From Acidobacteriaceae bacterium (GTDB lineage: Bacteria > Acidobacteriota > Terriglobia > Terriglobales > Acidobacteriaceae): a stretch of 64,000 bases of DNA. The stretch lies in NCBI GenBank assembly GCA_003132445.1, contig PKXU01000049.1, forward strand, positions 6,816 through 70,815, given 5' to 3'. This document shows, piece after piece, positions 3,385 through 41,154 of the stretch. The notes under the pieces are model-generated. The model searched no databases, was not told where the DNA came from, and saw nothing but the letters and a program-made list of their open reading frames with translations. The position numbers were made by a program, and so were the translations under genes. Each line of letters opens with the position of its first letter. The first letter of the stretch is position 1.

Positions 3385-3427
3385 TAATGCGCTGGCGCAA
3401 CAGCGCTCTTATATCGAAGAGTTTGCA

Positions 3428-4471
3428 TTAAGAGAAACTCGGAGCCTTTGCCGTAGATTCCCGCACCACCAACTCGGGCTCGATTGCTATTTCGGAAGGA
3501 TATTCTTTCTTTCCCTCGATTCGTTCCAACAGGCTCTGTGCCGCTACTTCTCCCATTCGATTCAAGGGCTGTCGCACGGTGGTTAAACTCGGCGTGTAAA
3601 AGGCGGCCCCCGGAATGTCATCGAAACCAATCACAGAGACATCTTGCGGAACGCGCAAGCCCTGTTCCTGCAATGCGCGAATCGCGCCAATCGCCGACAT
3701 ATCGTTGTAAGCAAACAGTGCGGTGAAGGGTTTTTGGCGCGTCAACAATTGCTTGATAAACGGATAGCCCAACATCGGCGTGGGATCGTCCGTATCGATT
3801 TGCACTGTCAACTCCGGATCAATCTTCATCCCAATTGCGGCGGCCACAGTGCAGATCGCATCCCAACGGTCCTGGGCGTCCGAGCTCAGAGGATTTCCTT
3901 TCATAAAAGCGACGCGCTCGTGCGAAAGCTCCTTCAGGTGATTTAGAGCCAAAACGGCTGCGCGTTGGTGATCCAGCACAATATTAGTAACGCCTTTCAA
4001 CTTCTTGTGCCCGGCAATGGCAATCGTCGGCAGCAGCGGCGCCTCATTTACGGTGGTGTCGACTGTGATAATGCCTTCCACTCCGCGCTCGGAAAGCATC
4101 TGCGAATATCGATTCAGCAAGACGGGATCGTGGCGGTGCACTACGGTCAGAAAGAAATAATCGCGTTGCCTTAAGTATTGCTCTATGCCGCTGATGATGG
4201 GCGAGCTGTAGGAGTCGCCAATTTCTTCCGCGATTACTCCGATGGTGTAGGTGCGCTTGTTGCGCAGCGTGCGGGCGAAAAAATTGGGTCGATAATTAAG
4301 TTCCTTCGCAGCGGCGTGAATCCGGTTCTTGGTCTCTTGCGGAATAGAGCGGGCCGACGGCGAATCATTGAGAACCGCAGATACCGTACCCGGAGTGAGC
4401 CCGATGTGTTGAGCGACGGCCTTCAGCGTAATCACAGAGGGCTTTTGGCCGGGTGTCTCGATTTGGCCCAT
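3428..4471 (-). CDS. LacI/GalR-family transcriptional regulator
   Basis: 347 residues. The N-terminal LacI helix-turn-helix (about 14-60) reads TLKAVAQHIGLTPGTVSAVL and continues to a hinge helix near YRPNFFARTLRNKRT. The rest is a type I periplasmic-binding-protein fold with typical GVIAEEIGDSYSSPI, AYNDMSAIGAI and VIGFDDIPGAAFYTPSLTTV segments. Such proteins repress or activate sugar genes in response to a sugar ligand. The gene sits between two MFS genes and near a glycosidase, pointing to a local carbohydrate regulon. A palindromic operator candidate lies 7 bp upstream of its start, suggesting autoregulation. Initiation is unclear: no good Shine-Dalgarno precedes the ATG. Confidence 0.93.
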   Translation of the reverse strand: MGQIETPGQKPSVITLKAVAQHIGLTPGTVSAVLNDSPSARSIPQETKNRIHAAAKELNYRPNFFARTLRNKRTYTIGVIAEEIGDSYSSPIISGIEQYLRQRDYFFLTVVHRHDPVLLNRYSQMLSERGVEGIITVDTTVNEAPLLPTIAIAGHKKLKGVTNIVLDHQRAAVLALNHLKELSHERVAFMKGNPLSSDAQDRWDAICTVAAAIGMKIDPELTVQIDTDDPTPMLGYPFIKQLLTRQKPFTALFAYNDMSAIGAIRALQEQGLRVPQDVSVIGFDDIPGAAFYTPSLTTVRQPLNRMGEVAAQSLLERIEGKKEYPSEIAIEPELVVRESTAKAPSFS

Positions 4472-4477
4472 GATTAG

Positions 4478-4491
4478 TTAAATCGTTTTAA
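4478..4491. promoter_or_regulatory. Candidate LacI-family operator upstream of the regulator gene
   Basis: TTAAATCGTTTTAA has perfect outer arms (TTAAA/TTTAA) around a central CG, the usual form of LacI/GalR operators with a central CpG. It lies 7 bp from the ATG of the LacI-family gene. The core AAATCGTTT recurs at 6243-6251 in the next promoter region. Binding is inferred from shape and position only. Confidence 0.5.
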
Positions 4492-4574
4492 TCGAATGTG
4501 TGGCCGCGCCGCCGGGTTATCTTACCAAATGCGAGAAGCTGCCGTGTTCCCCAATCACTTCCCCGATGCGCGCA

Positions 4575-6140
4575 TTACGCCTTGGCATAGCGTTGGCTGT
4601 TCGGTCGCGATCCGCTCAAAGCAAAAAACAGAATATAGAGGTAACAGATGACGGGAAGAAAGAATGCATGGTGAATGCCGATACGATCCGCAATCGCACC
4701 TTGTGCTACCGGCAGAATGGCTCCGCCCACAATGGCCATGATCATGACTCCGGAACCGTCTCCTGTGAGCGGTCCAAGTTCTGCCACTCCCAAGGTGAAA
4801 ATGCTGGGGAACATGATCGAGTTAAAGAAGCCAACCAGAAGAATGGTGTACATCGCAGTGCTTCCCGAAGTAAGCATCGAGATGGCGACCAGGCAGGCCG
4901 CGCACACGGCGCAAATGCCGAGCAGGAGTCGGGTTGTTGGAACCAAACGGCCACCTCGAAGAACCAGGCCGATTCCCAGGACAGCCGCCACGACGGCGAC
5001 CAGGGCAAAAAGCGGACGGGCCGCAACAAGGACCGAGACGATTGCCCACAGAACAGCTACGAAACTGAAATGTCCAACCGGGGCAGCGAGGTTGGTAGCC
5101 CAGGTGTGGGCAACCCAAGACGAAATCAAAAAGAGCAGCGCGCCGGCAACCGACGCCAACCCCATATAAGCCGCTTTTGCTCCACTTAACAGCGCGGATC
5201 CGAAGAAACGGCCCACCATCGCGCCGCCCCAGTAAAGTGCAACCAAACCGGCAGCCACTTTTTCTGTCAGACCGCCAATCTCCGGCTGACCGAAGTAGTT
5301 GACCAGGAAACTCCCGATGGAAACTTCAGCTCCCACATAAACAAAGATGCCGATGGCGCCGAAAATTAAATTCGGATGATTCCAAATCGAGTCGTTCACT
5401 TTTTCGCCGACCTTGTGTTGCGCATGTTCGATCTTCGGCAATCTGAAACTACCGATGGCGATCGCCAGCAGTACCAGTGCGATTCCCAGCCCCACATAAG
5501 GCATCTTCACCGTCGCCGCCTCATGCAGCCGGTACGCCTGTAGGGCATCCGGTGCTAATGCTCGTATATCCTCGATAGATTTCGCCGTGGCGCTCAGAAT
5601 CAATATGCCGCCGAAAAAAGGCGCCAGAAATGTACCCAGCGAGTTGAACGCCTGGGTTAGATTGAGCCGGCTCGATGCCGTCTCTGGTTTTCCCAGAACC
5701 GTGACATAAGGATTCGCCGCGACTTGCAGGCAAGTGATTCCTGCGGCAAGAACAATGAGCGCACCCAGAAATAATGGATACGACGGAACACTTGCTGCCG
5801 GAACAAACAAAAACGCGCCCAGCCCCATGGTCAACAATCCCACCACCATCGACCGCTGATAGCCAATCCAATCAATCACCTTCGCGGAGGGAATGGAGAA
5901 GATAAAATACGCTCCAAAAAAAGCAAACTGAATCAGCATGACCTGGGCATAGCTCAGGTCAAAAATCGATTTCAGGTGTGGAACCAGAATGTCGTTCAGG
6001 CAGGTAAGAAATCCCCACATGAAGAAAAGCGTCGTTACCGTAGCCAGCGGGGCGCCGTAGCTCTGCCCCGCGCCGGGCGCCGTGGAGGAAGTAGCAGTTG
6101 AAGTGTTGGGGGCCGAGATCGCCATGAGTTCTGTATCCAT
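4575..6140 (-). CDS. FucP/GluP-like sugar:proton symporter (MFS)
   Basis: A polytopic membrane protein of about 521 residues if it starts at ATG 6140. The N-terminal half has hallmarks of the FucP/GluP branch of MFS sugar permeases: FFMWGFLTCLNDILVPHLK, FAFFGAYFIFSIPS, LQVAANPYVTVLG and RLNLTQAFNSLGTFLAP. These carriers import fucose, glucose or galactose with protons. Extra hydrophobic segments in the C-terminal half make it longer than FucP. The reading frame is open back to 6353, but that overlaps the divergent glycosidase. Start choices are 6140 (GGAGG directly adjacent), 6125 and 6176; none has ideal spacing. It is divergent from the GH-A glycosidase and lies upstream of the LacI regulator. 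Confidence 0.88.
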   Translation of the reverse strand: MDTELMAISAPNTSTATSSTAPGAGQSYGAPLATVTTLFFMWGFLTCLNDILVPHLKSIFDLSYAQVMLIQFAFFGAYFIFSIPSAKVIDWIGYQRSMVVGLLTMGLGAFLFVPAASVPSYPLFLGALIVLAAGITCLQVAANPYVTVLGKPETASSRLNLTQAFNSLGTFLAPFFGGILILSATAKSIEDIRALAPDALQAYRLHEAATVKMPYVGLGIALVLLAIAIGSFRLPKIEHAQHKVGEKVNDSIWNHPNLIFGAIGIFVYVGAEVSIGSFLVNYFGQPEIGGLTEKVAAGLVALYWGGAMVGRFFGSALLSGAKAAYMGLASVAGALLFLISSWVAHTWATNLAAPVGHFSFVAVLWAIVSVLVAARPLFALVAVVAAVLGIGLVLRGGRLVPTTRLLLGICAVCAACLVAISMLTSGSTAMYTILLVGFFNSIMFPSIFTLGVAELGPLTGDGSGVMIMAIVGGAILPVAQGAIADRIGIHHAFFLPVICYLYILFFALSGSRPNSQRYAKA

Positions 6141-6330: not shown

Positions 6331-9300
6331 ATGCGCAAGCTTGTCATCTCCACAGTCGCCGCTCTTCTTTTTCTGGTCAGTCTTTCTCTGATCAGTCCAG
6401 CCGCATCGGTCGCTCAAACCGCAATGTCGTCTGTAATCGTGTTCAGCGAGCCCGGATTTCCCACCGCCGATTCCGCGGCCGCTTCGCTTGAGCAACTGGC
6501 AGCAATTTCTCCTGGCGCTCAATCGGTTGGCGCAGATGGCCTTCGAGACGCTCTGGAATCGCCATCCACCCGGCTCCTGATTCTTGCCTACGGATCAGCT
6601 TTCCCGGAAAACTCGTGGTCGGCGATCAAACAGTTTCTTGATCGCGGAGGAAATCTTCTGGTGCTCGGCGGTATGCCGTTTACCCGCGCCGCTTATCGCG
6701 ATACGCAGGGCTGGCATCTTCGCGACTACAGTGTCCGCTTCATCCGCCCGCTCATGATCGACCAGTACCAGACAACGCCCGGCTCCGAGGGGCTGCAGTT
6801 CCAGCCGAATCCGGAATCAACCTTGCAACTTACTTCGTTCGCGTGGAAGCGCGCCTTCAGCCCCGTAATTCGTTTGAGTGCGGTCGACCTTTATCACCGC
6901 GGCGGCGCTGCCGGGTCCATCGACGCGCGCCTCGACGCTCTCGCCTGGGGCATCGCAAATGGCCGCAAGTTATCGGCGCCTGCCCTGCAGATCGATCATT
7001 ACCGCAATGGTTACGACGGAGGACGCTGGATTTTCGTGAATGCGGAACTTTCCAGCGAGTTTTTCCACAATGACAGCCTTCTGCAATCTCTCGCAGAACG
7101 GGCTTTGCAGGGAGCTGAAGAATTCACGGTGCGGCCCGCTTTGCCGCTCTATCTTCCCGGCGAGCCGATCGAACTACAAGTGCAATGGCACGCAGCCGTG
7201 CAGCCCAAAGCGGCCGTCTCCCTGAAGATCACGTCTTTCCCCGAAGCGCAGCCCTCAGATCGCTCGACGGTAACTGCAACCATTAACGAACCGATCATGC
7301 TTCCCGCGCCGGAAGCCAAGGGACTTTACACCGTCGAAGCTCGGTTACTCGAAGGCGACCAAGTGCGCGCCATCTACCATTCCGGCTTCTGGATTCGCGA
7401 TGAATCGTATCTCCGGTCGGGACCGCGTCTCGGCGTCAACCATGACTACTTCGAACTCGATGGCCGTCCCTTGGCTGTCGTGGGCACCACCTACATGTCC
7501 AGCGAGGTGCAGCGCCTCTACTTCGACCATCCCAATGTGTACGTATGGAACCACGATCTCGCGCAGATTCAAGACGCAGGATTAAACATGATCCGCACCG
7601 GCTGGTGGACCGGCTGGGACAAGTTCTGCGATGAAAACGGTCAGCCCTACGAGCGCACCCTGCGCACACTCGAGGCTTATCTCATGACCGCCCGCAAGTA
7701 CGGACTGCCGGTGCAGTTCAACTTCTTTGCTTTTCTGCCCGACGTCCTCGGAGGAACCAATGCCTATCTCGATCCTGAGGCCATTCGCCGACAGCAGACG
7801 TTGATTTCAGCGGTGGTCGCCCGCTTTCATGACGTACCTTTTCTTGCCTGGGATCTCATCAACGAGCCCAGTTTTTCTCAACACCTTTGGAAGACGCGTC
7901 CGAACGGCGATCCCATCGAGCTCGCCGCCTGGAATCTGTGGTTGAGCCAACGCTATCCCGATCGCGCGAAGCTGGCCGCGCTGTGGAATGTTCCACCCAA
8001 TTCTGTCGCAGGAACCATCTCGCTTCCGACGGAAGATGAATTTTCTCCCCGCGGCATGTACACAGGAACCAATTCGCTGCGGCTCTATGACTATTTTCTT
8101 TTCGCGCAGGAATCGTTCGCGAAATGGGCGCGCACTATGCGGGACGCAATTCGCGCCACCGGTTCTCAACAACTCGTAACCGTTGGCCAGGACGAAGGCG
8201 GCATTCAAGATCGCCTGTCTCCAGCGTTTTGGGGTCAGTCGGTAGACTTCACAACCAATCACTCGTGGTGGCAAAACGATCACATTCTCTGGGATTCGCT
8301 CGCGGCCAAGCAACCGGGCGAGGCCATGCTGATCCAGGAAACCGGTCTGCAGCGAGAACTCAACATCGATGAAGTTGCACGCCGCACACCGGAGAGCGAG
8401 GCGGCTCTTCTAGAACGCAAAATCGCCACATCTTTTATTCAGGGCTCCGGTGCAATCGAGTGGCTGTGGAACACGAATTCCTACATGACGGAAAGCAACG
8501 AGACGCCGATCGGCGCTATGCGCACCGACTGCACCGAGAAGCCGGAGGCCACCGTCCTGCGGGCCTTCGCGCAATTCGCTCCGTCTTTGCAGGAACATCT
8601 TCGCGATCCGCAACTGCCTTCTATTGCGATCGTGACCTCGCAAGCCGCACAATATTCGGTGTTCGCGGAGTTCCAGTTGGCTGCGCAACAACGCGCCGTG
8701 CGCGCAGTTGCTTATGGCGCCCATCTGCCGGCGTACATCGTCGCTGAGAATCAGATGGAAAAGTTAGGTTCCCCGAAGCTGGCCATCCTGCCATCGCCGC
8801 AAGCGCTGACCGAAACTGCGTGGAGAACACTCTTAAAATATGTGGATGAGGGAGGCAACCTGCTGATTACTGGACCAGTCGATCGCGACGAACATTGGCA
8901 GATCATCGACCGTGCGGCCGAACTCGGACTTCAGGCTCAGGTCGAACCCCTTACTTATCACGATGCCTCAGTCCGCCTTGGAAACCGTCCCAGTGATCGA
9001 TTGCTCCCGCTTACCTTCGATCCGCAGGACCAGAGCTGGCTGGATTCTCTGCGCTTCGACGATGGCACGACCTTCAAAGAAATTTCTCATGGCAAAGGCC
9101 GCATCTTCTGGACGTCCTATCCAGTGGAACTTTCCGAGAACTTGGACTCAACTTCTGACCTCTACGCCTATGTCGCAAACCGCCTAAACATCACGCCACT
9201 GTTCAAGCAGCAGTCCCCCCTCCCGGAAGGAGTTCTCATTTTTCCCACAGTGATGGCGGACTCAGCGCTCTATGTCATGATCTCCGATTCCGCAAACGAT

Positions 9301-9426
9301 TCCACAATTAATCTCCGCGACCTGTCGACAGGCGTATCGCTAGCATTCACTCTGCCGAGGGAGCACGCAGCGATTGCGGTGATTGGGAAAAAGGACAAGA
9401 AGATTCTAGCCAGGTACGGCTTCTGA
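6331..9426 (+). CDS. Secreted clan GH-A glycoside hydrolase (beta-galactosidase/GH42-like)
   Basis: 1031 residues from ATG 6331, chosen because it opens a Sec signal peptide (MRKLVISTVAALLFLVSLSL, then AASVAQT). A Rossmann-like segment follows (LDRGGNLLVLGG). The catalytic (beta/alpha)8 domain starts near residue 370. WDLINEPS carries the predicted acid/base E512 and AMLIQETG the predicted nucleophile E670, a separation typical of clan GH-A (GH5/GH42). A second Rossmann-like GATase segment (KYVDEGGNLLITGP) follows, as in the GH42 trimerisation domain, then a beta-rich C-terminus. It probably cleaves beta-glycosides in the periplasm or outside. It is divergent from the FucP-like permease, which may import the sugar released. 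The substrate cannot be assigned. Confidence 0.82.
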   Translation: MRKLVISTVAALLFLVSLSLISPAASVAQTAMSSVIVFSEPGFPTADSAAASLEQLAAISPGAQSVGADGLRDALESPSTRLLILAYGSAFPENSWSAIKQFLDRGGNLLVLGGMPFTRAAYRDTQGWHLRDYSVRFIRPLMIDQYQTTPGSEGLQFQPNPESTLQLTSFAWKRAFSPVIRLSAVDLYHRGGAAGSIDARLDALAWGIANGRKLSAPALQIDHYRNGYDGGRWIFVNAELSSEFFHNDSLLQSLAERALQGAEEFTVRPALPLYLPGEPIELQVQWHAAVQPKAAVSLKITSFPEAQPSDRSTVTATINEPIMLPAPEAKGLYTVEARLLEGDQVRAIYHSGFWIRDESYLRSGPRLGVNHDYFELDGRPLAVVGTTYMSSEVQRLYFDHPNVYVWNHDLAQIQDAGLNMIRTGWWTGWDKFCDENGQPYERTLRTLEAYLMTARKYGLPVQFNFFAFLPDVLGGTNAYLDPEAIRRQQTLISAVVARFHDVPFLAWDLINEPSFSQHLWKTRPNGDPIELAAWNLWLSQRYPDRAKLAALWNVPPNSVAGTISLPTEDEFSPRGMYTGTNSLRLYDYFLFAQESFAKWARTMRDAIRATGSQQLVTVGQDEGGIQDRLSPAFWGQSVDFTTNHSWWQNDHILWDSLAAKQPGEAMLIQETGLQRELNIDEVARRTPESEAALLERKIATSFIQGSGAIEWLWNTNSYMTESNETPIGAMRTDCTEKPEATVLRAFAQFAPSLQEHLRDPQLPSIAIVTSQAAQYSVFAEFQLAAQQRAVRAVAYGAHLPAYIVAENQMEKLGSPKLAILPSPQALTETAWRTLLKYVDEGGNLLITGPVDRDEHWQIIDRAAELGLQAQVEPLTYHDASVRLGNRPSDRLLPLTFDPQDQSWLDSLRFDDGTTFKEISHGKGRIFWTSYPVELSENLDSTSDLYAYVANRLNITPLFKQQSPLPEGVLIFPTVMADSALYVMISDSANDSTINLRDLSTGVSLAFTLPREHAAIAVIGKKDKKILARYGF

Positions 9427-9756
9427 GGTTGTTCTCAAACACTGACGGGTGTTTCGGATTCTGCCGGAGTTGAGTGTGATCTCGCTTCGCGCCGTAAGCC
9501 TACCAAAGACGACGCCCGTCTCGAACTCTACTCTGACCTTTGCGCCCGCATAGGATCGATTGCAGCGACAGCAACGTCGTCGCCAATCACAGTAACAAAT
9601 CTCTTTCAAAGTAACGGGCTACGTCCAAGCATAGCGTAACAGTGTCCGAAATCGAAAAGCCGGTGGCCGAAATCGAACAGCTCAAGACCACGGAACCCCT
9701 ACAAGCAGACATTGACGCCGAATTTGAGCTGAAACTGGCCGTAAGCCCGCGCGTAC
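9427..9756. other. 330-bp gap between convergent genes
   Basis: It separates the 3' ends of the glycosidase and the 151-residue gene. A 68-codon plus-strand frame at 9642 and a 74-codon minus-strand frame at 9811 cross its right part, but both run into the neighbouring gene and look like no family. No convincing terminator hairpin with a T-run was seen. Confidence 0.4.
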
Positions 9757-29544: not shown

Positions 29545-30168
29545 TTAGAGACTAATTGAGTTCGGCTGCCGTGCGAGCCAGCGGCGGCTAAGCCAACGCA
29601 AGAATAAATGGGTAGGATAATAAATCAGCAGCGGCACCATAATCAGGTAGACAAGTAGATAAGCCCATCCCGGAAGCGTGTGTTGTTCGTGAAAAAACAA
29701 TCCCCGCGCCCAGTTCACGTCCTGCTCAGCTCGCCAGAAATAATTGATGGGAACGACGATCCAAGCCATTAGCGTCTGGAACTTCCATCCCCGGCGGTCA
29801 TAGCCCAGACGCCAGATCGCCCACAAAAGCAGCGGCGGCGTGACTACGTGAAACAAACTCAGCAGGCGAATGATGAGCGGCAGGTGCGGATCGAACATGT
29901 ATTCCGTTCCGCCGATGAGATGGTGGCCGGTCAATAGAGCGCCGGCAAGATCGATGGTGTAGATCGTCTGAAACAAAAGCAATCCTGAAGCCGCCCACGA
30001 AAAAATGAGCGGGCTCTCCAACCACAAGCCGATTCCAATCAGCACATTCCCGAGATCGCAAAAGAAAAGGAAATTTTGCAGCCCAAATTGCCGCCAGTAG
30101 AGCGGCGCCCACACAATCAGCCAGATGGTCCACCCGACCTTGAGCCACAACGGAAGACGCGAGTGCAT
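29545..30168 (-). CDS. Conserved polytopic membrane protein of unknown function
   Basis: 207 residues with about six hydrophobic helices, among them VGWTIWLIVWAPLYW, FFCDLGNVLIGIGLWLE, AASGLLLFQTIYTIDLAGAL and YLLVYLIMVPLLIYYPTHLF. Conserved-looking polar features within or near the membrane are DLGN, HHLIGGTEYMFD, HVVTP and FWRAEQDVNWARG, and a cluster of basic residues sits near the C-terminus. I do not recognise a characterised family. It stands alone between the DinB remnant and the receiver-TonB gene, transcribed divergently from the latter. Confidence 0.72.
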   Translation of the reverse strand: MHSRLPLWLKVGWTIWLIVWAPLYWRQFGLQNFLFFCDLGNVLIGIGLWLESPLIFSWAASGLLLFQTIYTIDLAGALLTGHHLIGGTEYMFDPHLPLIIRLLSLFHVVTPPLLLWAIWRLGYDRRGWKFQTLMAWIVVPINYFWRAEQDVNWARGLFFHEQHTLPGWAYLLVYLIMVPLLIYYPTHLFLRWLSRRWLARQPNSISL

Positions 30169-30337
30169 GGCCCGCTATTGTATGCCGAGCAGTAGACATC
30201 GTTGGATTTACTCGGAGGAAGTGTGAACGGCGCTTTCAAAGACTTTATGCTCCGTCGCATATCCGACAGAATTCTTGAAAAGCGAATTACCTGCGTAACT
30301 TGCTGGAGATAACACCTGTACTTACGATGGTTTGGGT

Positions 30338-32119
30338 ATGGGTTATCAAGCTCTCCTCTTCTGTCCCGACGAAAAAACCGCTCGCACGGTGACGCAGGTG
30401 TTAAGCGAGTTGGAGTTCAACGTCGACTCCTGCACCGAACCATTCGCTGCAGTCAAGAAGTTGATGGGCCAACACTTCGACGCTGTCGTGGTCGACTGCG
30501 ATAACGAGCAGAATGCCACATTGTTATTCAAGAGTGCGCGCAATTCGACGTCCAACCAGGCGTCCCTTGCCGTAGCCGTAGTGGAAGGTCAGGCCGGGGT
30601 GGCAAAGGCGTTCCGCATCGGCGCCAATCTCGTCCTGACCAAACCCATCAATATTGAACAGGCCAAGGGAACCTTGCGCGTGGCTCGTGGATTGCTGCGT
30701 AAGAGCGAGCCGCCCAAACCTATGGCTCCGCAAGCGCCGTCACCCTCTGCAGTTGCAGTCACCACGAACCCGGCGCCGCCGCCTGCCAGGCAGGCTCCAG
30801 CAGCGCAAGTTGCAACCGCACCCGTGGTATTTACCCCGGCCAAGCCTGAGACAAGATCAGCGTTGCCAGTGCCCGCCGCGACTTCCAAAGCCGCACAGGC
30901 CCCCCTGTCGGATGACGATTTGCTCGAAATCAGCACCGGGAACTCGGCGACCGCGTCCTCTACATTTACGCCGCCGTCCAATAAGTTCATTACGCCCGCG
31001 CCGCAGGCCGACAAGTCTCTTGCAACAGCTGTTCCGGTTGCGAAGCCGAACATTGGCTCGGGATTGCCGCCAGCCAATAGAGGTGCCGCCGCTAGCGCAC
31101 CTGCTCCAGCCCGCGAGCGTCAGGATAGTCGCGCCACCGAGGTATTGCCGAAACCTCCCGGCGCCACGGATGCCTCATCGAAACCAGTGGCGACAGTTCC
31201 AGCAGAGACCTCGAGTTTGTCAGTTTCCGCGCCCTTCGCCGCGCCCTCATTCAGCTTTGGCGGGGCCAATACCTCGTCGGAATCCACTGGCGGTAGCAAA
31301 AAGATTTTTCTGGGAATCGTTGCGGCCGCAATTATTGCCGTCGCCGCCTATGCAGGTTGGGCTCACTTCCAGGCACCCTCCAGTAGTCCCAACCTAACTG
31401 AGACGGCGTCCAATCCTGTCTCGGCTCCCGCTCCTGTCGCGATTCCACAGACTACGAAACCGAGTAAACCATCGCCCGCGCCCACGTCAGCAAAGCCATC
31501 AGCAACTTTACCGAGTTCGCAGACTACGTCTTCTAACCTAAAAGGGCATGCTGCGGAGAACGGCAATCCGGCTCAGGACGAGCTTTCTTCCTCAGCTTCT
31601 ACGAAAACATCGAAGACAGGATCCTCTGCCAGTAAGGAAACTGCCGATGCGACGGATGATTCCGACACGCCGCTCGTAGTCAAAGGGGGCAAGACGCCGG
31701 GCCGTCATGCGAAGGTTGGAGTAGCGGATGTCGCGGCTCCGAACATTATTGGAATTGCGACTGCAGGCGCTAGCGCGCCTCCGCCCGACCTTGGCAGTGG
31801 CCCAACGGTCGCGCCGAAACCTGTTCTGCAAACCATGACTGTTTCGCAGGGCGTCTCGCGAGGGTTGCTCTTCAAGAAAGTGCAGCCGGTGTATCCCAAG
31901 AATGCGCTATACATGCGGGTCGAGGGTACGGTGGAGTTGGCTGCGACCATCTCAAAAACCGGCGACATCACTCATGTGAAAGTGGTGAGTGGGGATTCGG
32001 AGCTTGCCAAAGCCGCCGTGACTGCGGTTAAGCAATGGAAGTACAAACCGTACCTTCTCAATGGCGAGCCGCTTGAGATTCAAACCCAAATCACGATTAA
32101 CTTCAAGTTACCCAATTAG
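30338..32119 (+). CDS. Receiver-like domain fused to a TonB C-terminal domain
   Basis: 593 residues from ATG 30338 (a TTG two codons upstream is possible). Residues 1-120 form a CheY-like receiver: acidic pair D11/E12 after the first strand, candidate phospho-acceptor D53 in DAVVVDCDN, and the conserved lysine in LVLTKPIN. About 200 residues rich in Pro/Ala/Ser follow, then one membrane helix (IFLGIVAAAIIAVAAYAGW, about 322-343). A second low-complexity periplasmic stretch leads to a TonB C-terminal domain (VQPVYPKNALYMRVEGTVEL, VVSGDSELAKAAVTAVKQW, PYLLNGEPLEIQT). The cytoplasmic N-terminus could therefore pass a phosphorylation signal to a TonB-type outer-membrane coupling domain (inference). 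No ExbB or ExbD is nearby. It is convergent with the pseudokinase gene. Confidence 0.85.
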   Translation: MGYQALLFCPDEKTARTVTQVLSELEFNVDSCTEPFAAVKKLMGQHFDAVVVDCDNEQNATLLFKSARNSTSNQASLAVAVVEGQAGVAKAFRIGANLVLTKPINIEQAKGTLRVARGLLRKSEPPKPMAPQAPSPSAVAVTTNPAPPPARQAPAAQVATAPVVFTPAKPETRSALPVPAATSKAAQAPLSDDDLLEISTGNSATASSTFTPPSNKFITPAPQADKSLATAVPVAKPNIGSGLPPANRGAAASAPAPARERQDSRATEVLPKPPGATDASSKPVATVPAETSSLSVSAPFAAPSFSFGGANTSSESTGGSKKIFLGIVAAAIIAVAAYAGWAHFQAPSSSPNLTETASNPVSAPAPVAIPQTTKPSKPSPAPTSAKPSATLPSSQTTSSNLKGHAAENGNPAQDELSSSASTKTSKTGSSASKETADATDDSDTPLVVKGGKTPGRHAKVGVADVAAPNIIGIATAGASAPPPDLGSGPTVAPKPVLQTMTVSQGVSRGLLFKKVQPVYPKNALYMRVEGTVELAATISKTGDITHVKVVSGDSELAKAAVTAVKQWKYKPYLLNGEPLEIQTQITINFKLPN

Positions 32120-32516: not shown

Positions 32517-35021
32517 TCATTGCCGCTGCATCACTTCGTCGATGACTACCTTGCCGCCTTTTTCTGAAGTGATGATCTTATGCAGGGGCGCATATCCAGT
32601 CAGTGTAATGTCGACCACATAATTGCCGGGATCGAGCAATACATCGGCGGGCGAACTCTTTTCCACCAGGCGCTGATTGATAGCGATCTGCGCGCCCTTT
32701 GGCTGAGTCCGTATACTTAGAATTCCCTGTCCTGCCTGTCCTTTTCCGCCGAACAGCTTCGACATCTTTCCTACGGTCTTAAGGTCATCTGTGTTGCCGA
32801 GCGGCCGCAGCGCGGGCGAGAAACTGAAAGCTTGGCCGAGGGCGAACTGCGCGTTCATGGTTTCATCAACGTATCCTGACATGCGAACCAGCACCACGTG
32901 CTGGCCTTTTTCGACGCTGATTTGTCCCGGCGTTTTGATGCCCATGTCGCGGCCATCGACGTAAATTTTGGCTCCCTCGGGATCGCTCTTCACGATAAGA
33001 GTGGCCATTAACTTCGCCAGATGGACTGTCGTTGTTGCGCGGTTTCCCGGTGTCACGCTGAGCGTGCGTGAGTCACTGGCATACCCGGCCTTGCTGACGG
33101 TGATGGAATGCTGACCGGGCTGTAGGTTGGTCAAAGACAACGGCGTAACCCAAGTCGGGTCGCCCCGTCCATCGACTTGAACCAGTGCACCCTGAGGCGT
33201 TGAGTCAACCGCCAATTGGCCTGGAATGATGATTGCTGCGACCTTCTTGCGCACATTTCGCGTTCTAGGAGACGCAGCCGGCTCAGCGACCGGGTTCGCG
33301 GGTTCGGCAGTTGCGGCTGACTGATCTGGCGACGGCTCAGCCTGTGCAGGAGGAGCGGCTACAGGCGCGGGCGCAGTCACCGGCGGAGCCTGACTGGGTT
33401 CAGAGGCGGTTTGAGTTACGGCAGAGCTACGGCCGCTGCCTGAATCGTCATCGCTGTTCAGCGAGTGGATATAAATAGCGACTCCAATTCCGATGACTAA
33501 AATTAGCGCTGCGGCCCCGGCTAGCGAATAGAGCATCAGCTTTGGCGGGACGTTCCTGATCTCCTTGATGGCCTTTTGAGCTACTTCGCGGGGCTGTACC
33601 TTGGGCTTTTCGTCGATCTTACGGTTCCCCTTCAATTCCGTTGGGCGTGTGTACGGTACTGGTTCGAAAGAGGCCTGCGCAGGAGGTGGAGGCGGAGCGG
33701 GCGCTACGTACTCCTTCAGCGGCGGCAGCTCGGTCATTTCGGAGAAGCTCACTCCAGTGCTGGCAGTCGGTCTCCCTTCGGCCATCAGCGGATCAACTGC
33801 GATTCTCGGGGCAGAATTGTTCGGCTCGAAAGTTTCGACCTGCGGCTCATCGCTAACGGCCGCTGACATCTGCGCCGATTCTGTTTGCGAAGAGCCAATG
33901 GCTGGCTTAGCGTACGAAACCGACGGCACAGCTTGCGGCACTTCCGACGAAGAAGCGATGCCGTTTGCGGTTCCCGCGGCCGCAGCGGCAGCTTTTGCAG
34001 CGGCAGGCCTCGCGGCCGGTTTCGCCGCAACCGCTGGACGCGTCGGCGCACTCGCAGCCTGAGCAGGCGCGGCTTTCTTTTCGACTGGAGCGGCCGAAGC
34101 TGGAGTGGCCGCAGCAGGCGTCACAAACTTTGCCTGGGCCGCAACATTGGGCTTGACCGGACTCGCAACAGCCTTTGGAGCCTCTATCTTCTTGGAAGCC
34201 GCCGGCCTCGCTTCTTTGCACTTTTCCAGATCGTTCAGCAGTTGCTTGCCGTCCTGGTAGCGCTGAGCCGGATCTTTTGCCAGCGCCTTCATAATCAGGT
34301 TGCTCAAAAGAGGATGCACTTTGGCATTCGTCTGCACCGGTGCGGGAGGCGTGCTCTCCAAAATGCTCTGCCGCACGGATGCGGCGTCTGCGCCATCAAA
34401 TGCTTTCCGTTCCGTCACCATTTCGTAAAAGATGGCGCCTAAGCTGAATAAATTGGATCGAGGATCCGTAGCCAGTTGCTGAATCTGTTCCGGGGCCATG
34501 TAATACAAGATCGAAGGAATTCCTTCGGGGACGTACTGCACAAAATTGCCTACGTTGGAAACGCCGAAGCCGAGAATCTTAACCGTGCCATCCCACCCAC
34601 ACATGATCTTGGAAGGTTCCAAACTGTAATGGACAATGTTGTGTGATTTGGCATGTTCGAAGCCGCCGCACAGTTGGCGCCCAATGTCGAGAAGATCCCA
34701 AATGGAAAATCCTTCTTTGCGCGCCAGCATGGTCGCGATGCTGTTGCCCTGAACGTAATCCATGGCGGCGCAGAACTGGCCTTCAATCTCACCCGCTCCG
34801 AATACATTGGTGATGTTGGGACTGCTTAAGACCTTGGTGCTTTCCGCCTCGGCCAGCAGAGCCTTTTCGAGCGCGGGCGCGTGCTCTCCAAATGCGCTCA
34901 ACTGGATCGCCTTCAAGGCGATCGTCTGCCCGCTTTCCGGATCGTTTGCTTTGTAGACTGCGCTGGTTGGCGATTTCGCCAGTTCACTTTGAATTTCGAA
35001 ATGGCCGATTTTCGTAGGCAT
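32517..35021 (-). CDS. Membrane-anchored Ser/Thr pseudokinase with three PEGA domains
   Basis: 834 residues. The N-terminal 270 residues have a Hanks-type kinase fold: ALKAIQL keeps the ATP-site lysine K37, and YMAPEQI and FSLGAIFYEMVT are intact. Key catalytic residues are lost: HRDLKP is replaced by HYSLEP (Asp to Ser at 133), DFG by GFG (Asp to Gly at 151), and the glycine loop by AKSPTS. I read it as a pseudokinase. A long Ala/Pro linker, a membrane helix (MLYSLAGAAALILVIGIGVA, about 490-515) and three extracytoplasmic PEGA domains follow (STPQGALVQVDG, SDPEGAKIYVDG, TQPKGAQIAINQ). It could sense or scaffold at the envelope. It is convergent with the receiver-TonB gene. Confidence 0.9.
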   Translation of the reverse strand: MPTKIGHFEIQSELAKSPTSAVYKANDPESGQTIALKAIQLSAFGEHAPALEKALLAEAESTKVLSSPNITNVFGAGEIEGQFCAAMDYVQGNSIATMLARKEGFSIWDLLDIGRQLCGGFEHAKSHNIVHYSLEPSKIMCGWDGTVKILGFGVSNVGNFVQYVPEGIPSILYYMAPEQIQQLATDPRSNLFSLGAIFYEMVTERKAFDGADAASVRQSILESTPPAPVQTNAKVHPLLSNLIMKALAKDPAQRYQDGKQLLNDLEKCKEARPAASKKIEAPKAVASPVKPNVAAQAKFVTPAAATPASAAPVEKKAAPAQAASAPTRPAVAAKPAARPAAAKAAAAAAGTANGIASSSEVPQAVPSVSYAKPAIGSSQTESAQMSAAVSDEPQVETFEPNNSAPRIAVDPLMAEGRPTASTGVSFSEMTELPPLKEYVAPAPPPPPAQASFEPVPYTRPTELKGNRKIDEKPKVQPREVAQKAIKEIRNVPPKLMLYSLAGAAALILVIGIGVAIYIHSLNSDDDSGSGRSSAVTQTASEPSQAPPVTAPAPVAAPPAQAEPSPDQSAATAEPANPVAEPAASPRTRNVRKKVAAIIIPGQLAVDSTPQGALVQVDGRGDPTWVTPLSLTNLQPGQHSITVSKAGYASDSRTLSVTPGNRATTTVHLAKLMATLIVKSDPEGAKIYVDGRDMGIKTPGQISVEKGQHVVLVRMSGYVDETMNAQFALGQAFSFSPALRPLGNTDDLKTVGKMSKLFGGKGQAGQGILSIRTQPKGAQIAINQRLVEKSSPADVLLDPGNYVVDITLTGYAPLHKIITSEKGGKVVIDEVMQRQ

Positions 35022-35516: not shown

Positions 35517-36665
35517 ATGACTTTGACTCGGTTCGTCACTAAGAACGCGTTTCGCAACAAACGTCGCAGTACTCTAACCGTGTTGAGCATCGCTTTTTCT
35601 TTGCTGTTGCTGACTCTGATGATGACGATTTGGCGGGCATTTTACTTGAGCGACGGAAGCGTCGAGTCCTCAGAGAGGCTGGTCGTCCGACATCGGGTTT
35701 CTCTCACATTTTCTCTGCCGGGCTTTTACCGGGAAAAGATTCGGGCGATTCCGGGGGTTGTGTCAGTAGTGCCCGTTTCCTGGTTTGGCGGAATCTACAA
35801 AGATCAGAAGCCGGAAAATTTCTTCGCTCAGTTCGGCACCGATCCGGATGAGTTTTTCAAGACGTTTCGTGATCTGCAAATGCCTGAGGATCAGATTAAG
35901 GCGTGGCAGCGCGATCGCCAAGGGGTAATCGTTGACGATTCGCTGGTGCAGAAATACGGATGGAAGCTGGGCGACCGAATTGTATTGCAGGGGAACATTT
36001 ATCCCGTCGACCTCGAATTGAATATACGTGGCATCTTCCACTCGAATCCGGACGACAAGGCTGTCTACTTCAACACAAAATATGTGGAAGAAGCGGTTTC
36101 ATTCTTCAAAGGTCAGGCCGGCACATTTAGCATCTTGGCGGCTTCTCCTGCCGACGTGAGCAAGATTGCCAGTACTGTGGATGACATGTTCCGCAACTCT
36201 CCGCAGCCCACCAAAACGGAGAGCGAGAAGGCGTTCGGCCTCGAATTCGTGGCCATGATGGGCAACGTGAAAGCGTTCATTCTAAGCATCTGCTCGGCCG
36301 TCGTCTTTGCAACTCTGCTGGTATCGGCCAATACCATGGCCATGTCGATTCGCGAGCGTACGCGCGAAGTGGCTGTATTAAAAACTTTAGGCTTCACGAA
36401 GCGCGGAGTGCTGGGTCTGTTCGTCAGCGAAGCGGTTGCGCTCTCGTTGGGAGGTGGTGTGCTCGGGGCTGGGCTTGGCTGGCTGATGGTTTATGGCCTG
36501 ACTCATTCTCCTCAATTCATCAGCTTCTTCCCGCTGCAGGTAACTCTTGGGATATGGATCGCTGCACTTCTCACCTCTGGAGTAGTGGGGCTTTTGAGTT
36601 CAGCCGTTCCTTCTTATCATGCTTCGCAAATAAACATTGTCGACGGATTACGTCACATTGGTTGA
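35517..36665 (+). CDS. ABC transporter permease, FtsX/MacB type (first of a tandem pair)
   Basis: 382 residues from ATG 35517, with TGGAG seven bases upstream. There is one N-terminal helix (RSTLTVLSIAFSLLLLTLMM), a periplasmic domain of about 220 residues, and three C-terminal helices. The FtsX-type core is visible in VFATLLVSANTMAMSIRERT and REVAVLKTLGFTKRGVLGLF, and it ends NIVDGLRHIG. Such permeases act with an ATPase as mechanotransmitters rather than classical channels, moving lipids, lipoproteins or small molecules out. It heads an operon of three permeases, a fusion protein and an ATPase. The next gene, three bases on, is a clear duplicate. Confidence 0.9.
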   Translation: MTLTRFVTKNAFRNKRRSTLTVLSIAFSLLLLTLMMTIWRAFYLSDGSVESSERLVVRHRVSLTFSLPGFYREKIRAIPGVVSVVPVSWFGGIYKDQKPENFFAQFGTDPDEFFKTFRDLQMPEDQIKAWQRDRQGVIVDDSLVQKYGWKLGDRIVLQGNIYPVDLELNIRGIFHSNPDDKAVYFNTKYVEEAVSFFKGQAGTFSILAASPADVSKIASTVDDMFRNSPQPTKTESEKAFGLEFVAMMGNVKAFILSICSAVVFATLLVSANTMAMSIRERTREVAVLKTLGFTKRGVLGLFVSEAVALSLGGGVLGAGLGWLMVYGLTHSPQFISFFPLQVTLGIWIAALLTSGVVGLLSSAVPSYHASQINIVDGLRHIG

Positions 36666-36668
36666 ATT

Positions 36669-37820
36669 ATGACGCTGGGCAGTTTTGTGGTGCGCAACAC
36701 GTTTCGCAACAAGCGGCGCAGTTTGCTGACCATGATCAGCATCAGCTTTTCACTGCTGTTGCTCACGCTCATGATCTGCATCTGGCGTTCTTTTTACGTT
36801 GATCAGGTAGCACCCGAGGCGGCGCGTCGAGTAATTACGCGAGACCGAGTGTCGCTGGCCTTTTTTCTGCCGGCATTCTACCGCGACAAAATTCGCAGCG
36901 TACCTGGGGTGACCGCGATTGCCCCACTGACATGGTTTGGAGGACGCTATATCGATGATCGGCCGCAACACTTTTTTGCGCAGCTGGCAACCGATCCCGA
37001 CGAATATCTTAAAGTTGCCTCCGACAAGATTGTTCCACCCGATCAACTGAAAGCTTGGCAGCAGGATCGAACTGGGGCTTTGGTGGACGTCACGCTGGCA
37101 AACAAATACGGCTGGAAGATTGGCGATCACATCACTTTGCAGGGAACTATCTTTGAGTTCAATCCGCAATTGACGATCCGTGCCATCTATCATCGCGATC
37201 CGCCTCAGAACGCGCTGTATTTCAACGCCAAGTATCTCGAGGAATCGGTACCGTGGTTCAAGGGCCAGGCGGGCTGGTACTCGGCACAGATCGATTCGGC
37301 GGAACACGTGTCGCAAGTGTCGAGACAGGTAGACGATATGTTCCGCAACTCCCCACTCCAAACGAAGACCGAGAGCGAAAAGGCGTTTCAGCTCGGTTTT
37401 ATCGCGTCTCTCGGCAATGTGAAGGCTTTTATCCTGGGGATCTGCGGCGCGGTGGTGTTTGCCATCATGTTGGTTTCGGCCAATACCATGGCGATGTCAG
37501 TGCGCACGCGGACGCGCGAGGTGGCTGTGTTGAAAACTCTTGGCTTCACCCGGCAACGGGTGCTGTCGATCTTTGTAAGCGAGTCTGTGGCGCTGGCCCT
37601 GGCCGGTGGAGTACTCGGTATTTTGGCGGCGGTGCCGGTCATTTGGTTTATGACGCGCAGCTTCATCGCATTGGGCGTTCCGCTGGCTATGAAAGTGAAT
37701 GCTCCCACTGCGGCGTTGTCGTTGCTGGTGGCGGTGACGTTGGGAGTGGTGAGCGGCTACTTGCCGGCTTTCAATGCATCGCGGATGAACATTGTCGATG
37801 GGCTGCGCCATATCGGCTGA
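36669..37820 (+). CDS. ABC transporter permease, FtsX/MacB type (tandem paralogue)
   Basis: 383 residues, collinear with the preceding permease: FRNKRRSLLTMISISFSLLL, a periplasmic domain with WFGGRYIDDRPQHFFAQLAT, DDMFRNSPLQTKTESEKAF and VKAFILGICGAVVF, then REVAVLKTLGFTRQRVLSIF and the same NIVDGLRHIG ending. The two genes clearly arose by tandem duplication and then diverged, most in the first half of the periplasmic domain and in the last helices. They may form a heterodimeric permease. It is three bases downstream of the first permease and 14 bp upstream of the third. Confidence 0.9.
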   Translation: MTLGSFVVRNTFRNKRRSLLTMISISFSLLLLTLMICIWRSFYVDQVAPEAARRVITRDRVSLAFFLPAFYRDKIRSVPGVTAIAPLTWFGGRYIDDRPQHFFAQLATDPDEYLKVASDKIVPPDQLKAWQQDRTGALVDVTLANKYGWKIGDHITLQGTIFEFNPQLTIRAIYHRDPPQNALYFNAKYLEESVPWFKGQAGWYSAQIDSAEHVSQVSRQVDDMFRNSPLQTKTESEKAFQLGFIASLGNVKAFILGICGAVVFAIMLVSANTMAMSVRTRTREVAVLKTLGFTRQRVLSIFVSESVALALAGGVLGILAAVPVIWFMTRSFIALGVPLAMKVNAPTAALSLLVAVTLGVVSGYLPAFNASRMNIVDGLRHIG

Positions 37821-37834
37821 TTGAGAATTTATTT

Positions 37835-39022
37835 ATGGCCATACCGATTAGTTACAACGTTCGCAATTTACGTCTTCGCAAAGGGCTCACGCTGATGACC
37901 GCGCTGGGCATTGCGCTCACCGTCACCACTGCAATTTTTCTTATGGCGTTGATCGCGGGCTTGAACCGCGCCTTTGTCAACAGCGGCAATCCGCTCAACG
38001 TTCTCGTGCTGCGCAAAGGCTCGGAGGCGGAGCTATCGGGTGGCTTCGACGCCTCGCTCTATCCTACGCTGAAGACTCTTCCCGGCATTGCGAAAGACAG
38101 CCACGGCGAGCCGATGACGTCGGGTGAGTGGGTGGTGGTGATCATCCTGCCCCGCAAAGATGGAACCGGCGAAGTGAATGTAACTGTACGCGGAATGATG
38201 CCCGACGGTCTCGAGATGCGAGAGTTGCCGGGCCCTGACAATCATGCGGGAGTGAAACTCATTGCGGGACGCTGGTTTCAGCCGGGTCAGCGCGAAGTAG
38301 TCGTGAGCAAGTCGATTCGCGACCGCTTTACCCACGCCAACATCGGCGACACCATGGAATTCGGCAAAGGATCCTGGAAGGTCGTTGGAGTGTTTGACGC
38401 GGGCGGCTCGGCGTATGAGTCGGAAGTGTGGAGTGATGTGAACCAGATGGCGTCGGATTTCGATCGTCAAGGAGGATACTCGTCAGCGTACCTGCACGCG
38501 ACCGATCCCATCGCCGCCGATGCGCTGAAGAACCGCGTCAGCGACGACCAACGGCTGAAACTCGAAGGAATGCTGGAGACCGATTACTATGCCAAGCAAA
38601 CCAGTTCCGGCACGCCCATTAAAGTGATCGGAATTGTAGTCGCCGTCATCATGGCGATCGGTTCGATTTTCGCGGCCATGAATACCATGTATGCTGCGGT
38701 GGCCTATCGTGGGCGCGAAATTGCCACGCTGCGCGTCATCGGCTTCTCGCGGCCCTCAATTCTGACGTCTTTTGTTCTGGAGTCCTTGCTGCTTGCCCTG
38801 CTGGGCGCAGCCGCCGGAATTTTGCTCATGCTGCCCTTCAACGGGATGCAGACTGGCACGTCGAATGCCGTGACGTTTAGCGAGGTCGTGTTTGCCTTGC
38901 GCATCACGCCACAGGTAGCCATGTATGCGATTCTGTTCGCTTTGATTATGGGATTCGTGGGCGGATTGGCTCCCGCGTGGCATGCGGCACGTCAGAATAT
39001 TCTGAACGCGTTGCGAGGATAA
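37835..39022 (+). CDS. ABC transporter permease, FtsX/MacB type (third permease)
   Basis: 395 residues from ATG 37835; the same frame is open upstream only through the previous gene. The N-terminal helix is LTLMTALGIALTVTTAIFLM. A periplasmic domain follows (PRKDGTGEVNVTVRGMMPDG, AGRWFQPGQREVVVSKSI), then FtsX-type helices with IGSIFAAMNTMYAAVAYRGR and EIATLRVIGFSRPSILTSF. It resembles DevC-like exporter permeases more than the tandem pair does. It lies just before the membrane fusion protein and ATPase genes, so it is the likely core partner of both. Confidence 0.9.
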   Translation: MAIPISYNVRNLRLRKGLTLMTALGIALTVTTAIFLMALIAGLNRAFVNSGNPLNVLVLRKGSEAELSGGFDASLYPTLKTLPGIAKDSHGEPMTSGEWVVVIILPRKDGTGEVNVTVRGMMPDGLEMRELPGPDNHAGVKLIAGRWFQPGQREVVVSKSIRDRFTHANIGDTMEFGKGSWKVVGVFDAGGSAYESEVWSDVNQMASDFDRQGGYSSAYLHATDPIAADALKNRVSDDQRLKLEGMLETDYYAKQTSSGTPIKVIGIVVAVIMAIGSIFAAMNTMYAAVAYRGREIATLRVIGFSRPSILTSFVLESLLLALLGAAAGILLMLPFNGMQTGTSNAVTFSEVVFALRITPQVAMYAILFALIMGFVGGLAPAWHAARQNILNALRG

Positions 39023-39058
39023 TCGGGTCGGCAACATTTTATTAAGGTAAACATTTTT

Positions 39059-40444
39059 ATGGCGATCGATACAAAACATGAAGACCTGCAGAGCCTGCGC
39101 ATCGACCGCTCGCAGCGCGGCGACTCCGGCGGAGAACCGCCAGCCTGGGCCCGCCGATACATCCTTGTCGGCGTCGCCGTGGTCGCCCTGCTCGGCGTGG
39201 TTAGCCTGGCCTATCGCGCGTTCTCGTCGGCTGTGCCGGAAGTCGAGGTCGTTCGCGCGACTGCGGAAACGAGCGGTAACGACGCGGGCGGCACTGTCCT
39301 TTCTGCAACGGGCTACATTGTGGCTCATCACACCATCAACGTGAACTCTAAAGTTACGGGCCGCCTGGCCTGGATTGGCGTGGAAAAGGGCGACAAAGTA
39401 AAAGAAGGGCAAGTGCTGGTTCGCCTGGAGGATCAGGAATTTCGGGCTTCCTATGAACAGGCTCGCGGCGCGCTGGAAAACGCCCGTGCTTATTTCAGCG
39501 AACTGCAACACGGATCGCGGCCGGAAGAAATCCAGCAGGCGCAACATAATCTGGACGAAGCTCGCGCCACCCTGGTGAATGACAAGCTCACGCTCGATCG
39601 CACGAAAGAACTCGCAAGCGGAGGGGTCGTGTCGCGGCAGGCATTGGACGATGCCACGGCCAAGTTCGACTCTGACCAGCAGCGCGTGAATTCCCTGGAA
39701 AAGGCATTTCAACTGATGAAAATTGGGCCGCGGCCGGAGGAGATCGAACGTGCGCAGGGTACAGTCACGCAGGCGCAAGGGGCGCTTGATTATGCCAAGT
39801 CGCTGCTGGATGCGACCGTGATTCGCGCGCCGGTCACCGGCACGATTCTTGACCGCACGGCGGAAAAAGGCGAACTGATCACGGCGCAGTTTGCCAGCGC
39901 AGCGGCTGGCGGTCCGCAGGGGTCAGTGGTATCTCTGGCGGATTTGAACGATCTGCAGGTTGAACTCGACATCGCGCAGGCCGATTTCGCCCGGCTCGGT
40001 CCTAATCAAAAAGCAAAAGTCACAACCGATGCATATCCCGACAAGGAATACGATGGCGTGATCGCGCAGATTTCTCCGGAAGCGAACCGGCAGAAAGCCA
40101 CGGTGCAAGTGAAAGTGCAGGTGTTGAATCCGGACAAATATCCGAACATTCAACTGCGTCCGGAGATGAATGCGACCGTGAAATTTCTCGCCAACGATAC
40201 ACCAAAGAATGCGAAGGACCCTTCGGGCGTATACGTGCCGTCGACGGCTATTCGTGATCGCGATGGTAAGAAGATCGTATGGATCGCCTATAACGGAAAG
40301 GCTATTGCCCGCGAGATTCATGTGATCGGCCAGCGCAGCGACGGCGCGCTGGTAGACGGACTGGTCGGAGGCGAAAGCGTAGTGACTACTGCACCGACGA
40401 CATTGAAAGATGGAGACAAAATTAAAATTAAGGGGCAATCATGA
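39059..40444 (+). CDS. Membrane fusion (HlyD/MacA-type) periplasmic adaptor
   Basis: 461 residues from ATG 39059, preceded by AAGG. A single N-terminal helix ([20 protein letters not shown], about 33-53) anchors it. A lipoyl/barrel-sandwich half follows ([20 protein letters not shown]), a long coiled-coil hairpin with two similar PEEIxxAQ segments ([38 protein letters not shown]), the second lipoyl half ([19 protein letters not shown]), and beta-barrel and membrane-proximal domains to the end. Such adaptors link an inner-membrane ABC permease to an outer-membrane channel. No TolC homologue is in the window. Its stop overlaps the ATPase start (ATGA). Confidence 0.93.
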
Positions 40445-41154
40445 GCACAGTCGCACAAGCAAACGTTGCCACGGGAACGAAAGTTGTACAGGTACGCAGC
40501 GTCAGCAAGGTTTTTAAGCGCGACGCCTTTCAGGTTACAGCGCTCGATGATGTTTCGATCGACATCGCCAAAGGTGAATTCCTCGCCCTGATGGGACCCT
40601 CCGGATCGGGCAAGACTACCTTGCTAAATATGATCGCAGCCATCGACCGTCCCAGCAGTGGGGAACTCCTGGTGCAGGGTCAGGATATTTTTCGCTTTAG
40701 CGACTCGCAGATTGCACACTGGCGCAATGAGCACATCGGCTACGTCTTTCAAACTTTCAATCTGATTCCCGTGCTCACCGCGTTTGAAAATGTGGAACTG
40801 CCGTTACTCCTAACCAAGCTCTCTGCGCAGCAGCGCCGCGACCACGTTATGACCGCGCTCAAACTCGTGGGGCTGGAGGACCGTGTCAATCATTTGCCCA
40901 AGCAGCTTTCAGGAGGCCAGGAACAACGCGTCGCGATTGCGCGTGCCATTGTGAGCGATCCCACGCTCCTGCTGGCCGATGAGCCTACGGGCGACCTGGA
41001 TAGTCACTCCGCTACTGAAGTGTTAGAAATCCTGAAGCGGCTAAATGAGGATTTTCAGAAAACGATTGTGATGGTCACGCACGATCCCCACGCAGCCTCT
41101 TACGCGCACGTGACGCGGCATTTGGAGAAAGGAATGCTGTTGCCTTCGGCGTAG
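40441..41154 (+). CDS. ABC exporter ATPase (LolD/MacB-type)
   Basis: 237 residues. Walker A is GPSGSGKTT, the Q-loop is [11 protein letters not shown], the signature is LSGGQEQR, Walker B is [12 protein letters not shown], and the switch histidine is in VMVTHDPH. The length and the [16 protein letters not shown] segment fit the LolD/MacB/DevA branch that powers FtsX-type permeases. It is the last gene of the operon, coupled to the adaptor by a four-base overlap, and the only ATPase for three permeases. It might also serve the ATPase-less MacB permeases at 46607-49176 (inference). Confidence 0.95.

Follow-up and report, generated by a model that had tools for sequence, protein, structure and literature searches.

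What does a membrane receptor do with a Ser/Thr kinase domain that has lost the aspartates of both the HRD and the DFG motif? Such a protein is encoded in the stretch of DNA analysed here (64,000 nucleotides of contig PKXU01000049.1 from an Acidobacteriaceae bacterium, referred to as the window). With moderate confidence, we regard it as a receptor pseudokinase that originated as a duplicate of an intact kinase with the order kinase, linker, transmembrane segment and three PEGA domains, lost its phosphotransfer residues once and was retained as a non-catalytic signalling scaffold. As part of this explanation, we propose that the residues were lost in one ancestor within one family of Acidobacteriota.

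Domain layout, predicted fold and catalytic residues

The gene and the segments of its product are listed below.

32517..35021, minus strand (start at 35021): PEGA receptor pseudokinase gene, ATG, 834 aa
34212..35021, minus strand: pseudokinase domain, aa 1–270 (Pfam Pkinase, AlphaFold2, solved-fold comparison)
34911..34913, minus strand: β3 Lys, K37, retained (30 of 30 core members)
34674..34757, minus strand: αD–αE segment, aa 89–116, with constraint gained in pseudokinases (constraint comparison; helices 95–100 and 107–125 in the AlphaFold2 model)
34602..34631, minus strand: catalytic loop HYSLEPSKIM, aa 131–140, with Asp to Ser, Lys to Glu and Asn to Lys (sequence)
34587..34595, minus strand: WDG of the β7–β8 turn, aa 143–145 (invariant in the 20 compared core members; model strands 139–142 and 147–149)
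34563..34571, minus strand: GFG in place of DFG, aa 151–153 (sequence)
34452..34454, minus strand: N190 in place of the αF Asp (Asn in 29 of 30 core members)
33708..33749, minus strand: linker motif SFSEMTELPPLKEY, aa 425–438 (conserved among core members)
33471..33539, minus strand: single hydrophobic (transmembrane) segment, approximately aa 495–517 (sequence; helix 493–522 in the poor full-length model)
33012..33221, minus strand: PEGA 1 (Pfam)
32802..33005, minus strand: PEGA 2 (Pfam)
32526..32726, minus strand: PEGA 3 (Pfam)

Pfam matches Pkinase to aa 19–256 of the window protein (E 1.8e-29) and PEGA to three stretches (E 1.8e-38), in agreement with the three PEGA domains of an initial annotation made from the sequence. 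An Ala/Pro-rich linker of ~220 residues and one hydrophobic transmembrane segment separate the kinase from the PEGA region. The lone hydrophobic segment between the two parts suggests that the PEGA region is extracytoplasmic. The AlphaFold2 model of aa 1–275 (mean pLDDT 92.2, pTM 0.89) has the bilobal fold of Hanks-type Ser/Thr kinases, and the solved structures nearest to it are PknB/Stk1 (VIA Z 30.6, rmsd 2.8–2.9). The full-length AlphaFold2 model (mean pLDDT 47.1) is poor throughout, including the kinase domain, except for the PEGA region. It therefore neither supports nor rules against disorder of the linker and is uninformative on docking of the linker motif.

In the minus-strand reading frame HYSLEPSKIM takes the place of HRDxKPxNxM, and GFG that of DFG. 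The replacements HYSLEP (aa 131–136) and GFG (aa 151–153) named by the initial annotation are thus present, as are K37 and the APE region (YMAPEQ), which it had listed as remaining. The αC Glu (E58) is also retained. The degradation extends further than had been noted: the Gly loop is degraded (LAKSPTS), E135 stands in place of Lys, K138 in place of Asn and N190 in place of the αF Asp. These replacements are nearly fixed in the 30 core members of the family described below (HRD Asp to Ser in 27, and Lys to Glu, Asn to Lys and αF Asp to Asn in 29 each). The DFG Asp is replaced by Gly in 17 and by Ser in 12 of them.

A pseudokinase is defined in PMC12599244 as a kinase without at least one of the β3 Lys, the HRD Asp and the DFG Asp. 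By this residue-based definition the window protein is a pseudokinase, with both aspartates gone, and phosphotransfer activity is presumably absent. The Mg-binding residues are missing while the adenine pocket and the K37/E58 pair largely persist. Pocket residues were counted in 20 of the 30 core members, as in the constraint comparisons below (the ten omitted are close relatives of the window), and are A35 in 18/20, K37 in 20/20, E88 in 19/20 and M140 in 18/20. The largely retained pocket makes it possible that a nucleotide is bound without metal and acts as a conformational switch.

Distribution, selection and origin

The set of readable pseudokinases comprises 34 sequences, namely the window protein, 12 orthologues from the genome-contig scan, 18 core-type family members from other genomes (L134–L150 and the fragment L115 of G009) and three early-branching members (L151, L153 and L203). 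L117 (G057), L129 (G009) and L034, in which the HRD motif is unreadable, stand outside this set. The HRD Asp is absent in 34/34 and the DFG Asp in 30/34, and K37 is retained in 32/34. The scan had yielded 13 orthologues (L024–L036), and in all 12 with a readable kinase domain both aspartates are gone. Among another 18 core-type members, 17 lack both as well; the exception, L146, retains DFG. The alignment of orthologues that had been suggested as a check therefore shows the same losses throughout, and close orthologues with intact HRD and DFG, which would have pointed to a sequence error, do not occur among the 12 readable ones. The losses are genuine.

The traits are not universal in the family. 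The three early-branching members retain an Asp at the DFG position (DFG in L153, DFA in L151, DWG in L203) and lack the linker motif. In L153 and L151 the β3 Lys is replaced by Arg, and in L153 the HRD Asp is replaced by Asn. Two core pseudokinases are present in one genome (L137, G049:C8, and L138, G049:C34).

Matches at E 1e-60 were obtained in 21 of 60 genomes of the family (its own included), spanning 20 of 59 genera; this cut-off missed L203 in G038 and may also have missed other early members. At E 1e-55, from which remoter members would escape, none of 44 genomes from other families of the class gave a match. In the genome of the window (87% complete), HRD and DFG are intact in every one of the 17 other kinases whose motifs can be read, so the losses in the pseudokinase are not a matter of chance. 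For this count L016/L022 and L018/L019 were merged as one gene each, and L020 and L021/L023 were unreadable. The profile matches of two kinases of this genome (G000:C87:57858-58590 and G000:C81:15097-15814) are each split into two pieces in different frames.

Selection was estimated from 12 sequences, with omission of L029, which has unread bases, and of L034, which is partial. The kinase domain has a mean identity of 0.74 and a median dN/dS of 0.105, compared to medians of 0.15–0.17 in the PEGA domains, 0.21 and 0.28 in the two linkers and 0.17 in the transmembrane segment. Only a juxtamembrane stretch of 23 residues has a lower ratio (0.07) than the kinase domain. Judged by these ratios, which are rough because dS is high and near saturation, purifying selection acts on the kinase domain (dN/dS ~0.10). 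A sequencing error or a decaying pseudogene has next to no probability as an explanation. The early-branching L151 (G003) is in its favour, since the frame of this pseudokinase is cut by an in-frame stop at ~9314, inside the kinase domain, as could result either from a pseudogene or from faulty assembly. On the other side are the loss of HRD in 34/34, the dN/dS of ~0.10 and the open frames in the core members read; for the window gene itself, the orthologues and dN/dS reject both error and decay.

A tree was built from 54 kinase domains, and in it one branch (100/100, found in 100% of the bootstrap trees) separates 29 pseudokinases. The core members L026, L027, L029 and L031 and the fragment L115 were left out of this tree, which was midpoint-rooted for drawing and in which L203 is a long branch. 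Adjoining the pseudokinases are 14 intact kinases, which come from 13 genomes within the family and form no supported clade of their own. These intact PEGA receptor kinases (L152, L188–L191, L204–L211) share the order of kinase, Ala/Pro-rich linker, transmembrane segment and PEGA region, with three PEGA domains by Pfam in 13 cases and two in one, the second kinase of L208. They differ from the pseudokinase by the presence of HRD, DFG and the catalytic Asn and by the linker motif, which occurs in 0/14. No description of them was found in the literature searched. Intact and dead forms are found together in G026 (L152 and L153) and in G038 (L204 and L203), which points to duplication of an intact PEGA receptor kinase as the origin of the pseudokinase.

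Two further ideas about the relation of the forms were not supported. Mutual exclusion was examined in the 41 genomes covered by both scans (G000–G040), 13 with a pseudokinase (12 by the E 1e-60 search, G038 added separately) and nine with an intact PEGA kinase; weaker intact matches, e.g. in G025, were left unclassified. Two genomes contain both forms and ~2.9 are expected by chance. Conversion in place at one locus is not supported either, as the five examined intact loci have other neighbourhoods.

Compared by their described features, the protein fits none of the seven bacterial pseudokinase families treated in PMC12599244, which belong to a classification of 42 bacterial STK families. ActPs1 has substitutions in all three catalytic residues, whereas the β3 Lys is retained here in 30/30 core members. 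ActPs2 combines β3 Lys to Arg and HRD Asp to Asn with large insertions and, in most members, a DFG deletion; here K37 is retained, the HRD Asp is replaced by Ser, and there is neither a DFG deletion nor a large insertion. The early L153 is partly ActPs2-like (Lys to Arg, Asp to Asn) but retains DFG. ActPs3/MviN of mycobacteria is likewise a Hanks-type pseudokinase and a membrane protein, with the transmembrane segment often C-terminal to the domain. It has VALT at the β3 Lys, all motifs degraded, an activation-loop deletion and no binding of ATP or Mg, whereas the window protein has K37, an activation loop and PEGA as its other part. A similar known system is EssB/YukC of type VII secretion, a transmembrane pseudokinase with the role of a non-catalytic scaffold, but there all three catalytic motifs are degraded, the activation loop is short and the family is from Firmicutes. 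Neither MviN nor YukC appears in the 50 VIA structure matches listed, which is no evidence against a likeness. GLW proteins have GLW for HRD and Leu or Trp for the β3 Lys, where HYS and ALK are found here. CP1 lacks a transmembrane segment and is linked to a COG3899 domain; the window protein has a transmembrane segment and PEGA and no further Pfam domain. DYD was compared as well, and the present family has HRD and DFG lost with the β3 Lys retained. DLHK, without a transmembrane segment, retains the HRD Asp and has degraded ATP- and metal-binding motifs, which is the opposite pattern (PMC12599244).

The PASTA receptor kinases PknB/Stk1 provide the closest solved folds and share the plan of a receptor kinase with one transmembrane segment. 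They are catalytically active and carry PASTA domains, in contrast to the PEGA domains of the window protein, in which Pfam finds no PASTA. Its score against the NCBIfam PASTA-kinase model (178.6 bits, cut-off 450 bits) places it outside the PASTA receptor kinases. Bacterial pseudokinases are largely unexplored experimentally, and most reports of the seven reviewed families concern actinobacteria, firmicutes, cyanobacteria and proteobacteria (PMC12599244). The terms 'Acidobacteri' and 'PEGA' are absent from the main text of that source, and none of the papers listed for bacterial pseudokinases, PEGA-domain kinases and acidobacterial kinases deals with the present family.

Gained constraint and the linker motif

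Conservation was compared between the 20 core members and the 14 intact kinases. It is lower overall in the core (0.580) than in the intact kinases (0.656); constraint is lost in the Gly loop and the activation loop, and that of the N-lobe is down overall. Constraint is gained at aa 91–117 (0.74–0.78 in the core, 0.27–0.58 in the intact kinases) and at W143–D144. Ten of the 16 sites with gained constraint fall within one span of 27 residues (from aa 87), a clustering reached by 0 of 20,000 permutations. The best span by mean difference is aa 89–115 (+0.38; 0 of 2,000 permutations), and the same span is best when the core is compared to 20 other active kinases. Comparison of these 20 with the intact set gave no positive span. 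The intact set compared to these 20, however, gave a span of +0.33 with six clustered sites at aa 212–238. As a similar span is obtained between two active sets, shifts of this kind also occur outside pseudokinases and gained constraint alone is no proof of a docking site.

On the AlphaFold2 model the gained constraint maps to αD, the αD–αE linker, the start of αE and the β7–β8 turn. In MAPKs the D-docking groove is flanked by the αD–αE linker, αE and the β7–β8 loop (PMC4370755). These are the elements with gained constraint here, and the likeness is an analogy only. The linker motif of the pseudokinase is acidic, unlike the basic D-motif of MAPKs, and no C-terminal common-docking site is evident.

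This linker motif, [ST]FS[ED]xx[EQ][LM]PP, is present in 30/30 core members and in the fragment L115, and 17 of the 30 have the exact string SFSExxELPPLKE. It is found in none of the 14 intact kinases and is absent from the early L153 and L203 and from both pieces of L151. The WDG of the β7–β8 turn is already present in all three early members, which lack the motif, and thus a change in the turn preceded the linker motif. A partner sharing the motif was also sought; the genome of the window has no second copy at E up to 1.

Proposed role, alternatives and gene neighbourhood

Since the loss is common to relatives in many genera, the protein probably acts by binding other proteins to relay envelope signals, and not by catalysis. 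Outside the membrane, the three PEGA domains would sense or hold an envelope ligand, and the single transmembrane segment and the long Ala/Pro-rich linker would relay its signal. The pseudokinase domain may then offer a docking face (αD–αE and the β7–β8 turn) to a partner or to the motif in its own linker. The initial annotation had suggested allosteric or scaffold signalling. This suggestion is partly supported, as it agrees with the purifying selection, the single origin and the new constraint away from catalysis; the lack of catalysis, the sensing, the docking and the partner are what we infer. The family combines a single branch of loss, living intact sisters of the same architecture and intermediates that retain DFG, and would show how a bacterial receptor kinase becomes a scaffold. 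The residues that can be named for roles are W108, D109, D112, W143, E135/K138 and the ELPP motif.

STRAD and HER3 are pseudokinases that serve as allosteric partners of active kinases. The PEGA pseudokinase might likewise act as allosteric partner to a single active Ser/Thr kinase of its own cell, via kinase–pseudokinase dimerisation and not peptide docking. The PknB-like fold and the 17 other kinases of the genome with HRD and DFG agree with this, and retention of K37/E58 is compatible with an active-like position of αC. Furthermore, G024 and G026 each have an intact-motif kinase encoded directly next to the pseudokinase gene and in its orientation. These kinases, however, differ in type, and a kinase-profile search of orthologue loci revealed no further adjacent kinase. 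The clustered gain of constraint in αD–αE and the overall fall in the N-lobe also speak against dimerisation, which we consider possible but rather unlikely.

The persistence of the adenine pocket could instead indicate a non-canonical enzyme with SelO-like AMPylation, SidJ-like glutamylation or metal-independent phosphotransfer. The Gly loop, the catalytic-loop Asn (now Lys) and the DFG Asp are all gone, however, which makes such an activity very improbable. A little less improbable, though still doubtful, is a kinase domain that is merely a passive structural or dimerisation module, with the PEGA part doing the work. Conservation does extend to the PEGA and juxtamembrane parts, but the kinase domain is conserved more than the PEGA domains and has clustered, clade-specific new constraints. 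A non-catalytic signalling scaffold is the reading we retain.

The two neighbouring gene groups of the pseudokinase in the window are as follows.

35517..41154, plus strand: divergent neighbour with MacB/FtsX-type permeases, HlyD-like protein and ABC ATPase (Pfam, locus census)
30332..32119, plus strand: convergent neighbour with receiver-like domain, linker, transmembrane segment and TonB_C (Pfam, locus census)

Among the 25 core loci with at least 2.6 kb of upstream sequence (window included), a divergent MacB/FtsX-type permease gene lies upstream at 20, ~0.1 to 5 kb off and not always adjacent. In many of these 20 loci, the HlyD-like protein and the ABC ATPase then follow. The convergent receiver-TonB gene is found at 15 of the 30 core loci with at least 1.9 kb of downstream sequence, ~0.3 to 6 kb off. 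Neither neighbour was present at the five examined intact loci, at L151 or at L153 (2.1 kb of upstream sequence). The gene order may be inherited passively among relatives, and the neighbourhood is therefore a lead and not functional evidence.

By analogy to MAPKs, a bolder form of the scaffold reading can be drawn up. Loss of catalysis would have gone along with the birth of a MAPK-like groove, for which the linker motif later became a built-in latch. On sensing by PEGA, this latch might be released or bound by a partner and possibly govern the MacB-like ABC exporter. We regard this scheme as tentative and its correctness as fairly unlikely.

The receiver-like N-terminus of the protein encoded at 30332–32119 (plus strand) falls short of the Pfam cut-off (24.1 against 30.2 bits) and is followed by a long low-complexity linker, a transmembrane segment and TonB_C. 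The receiver-TonB gene is present in two successive copies at L135, L136 and L140. The intact-motif kinases that adjoin the pseudokinase on the same strand are of the PD40 type at L144 (G024; minus strand, 7127–9721) and of the TPR type at L153 (G026; minus strand, 3367–6018). Additionally, a protein of 207 aa that contains several hydrophobic stretches and is not matched by any Pfam family is encoded at 29545–30168 (minus strand), and a relative of it is found near the pseudokinase at several loci.
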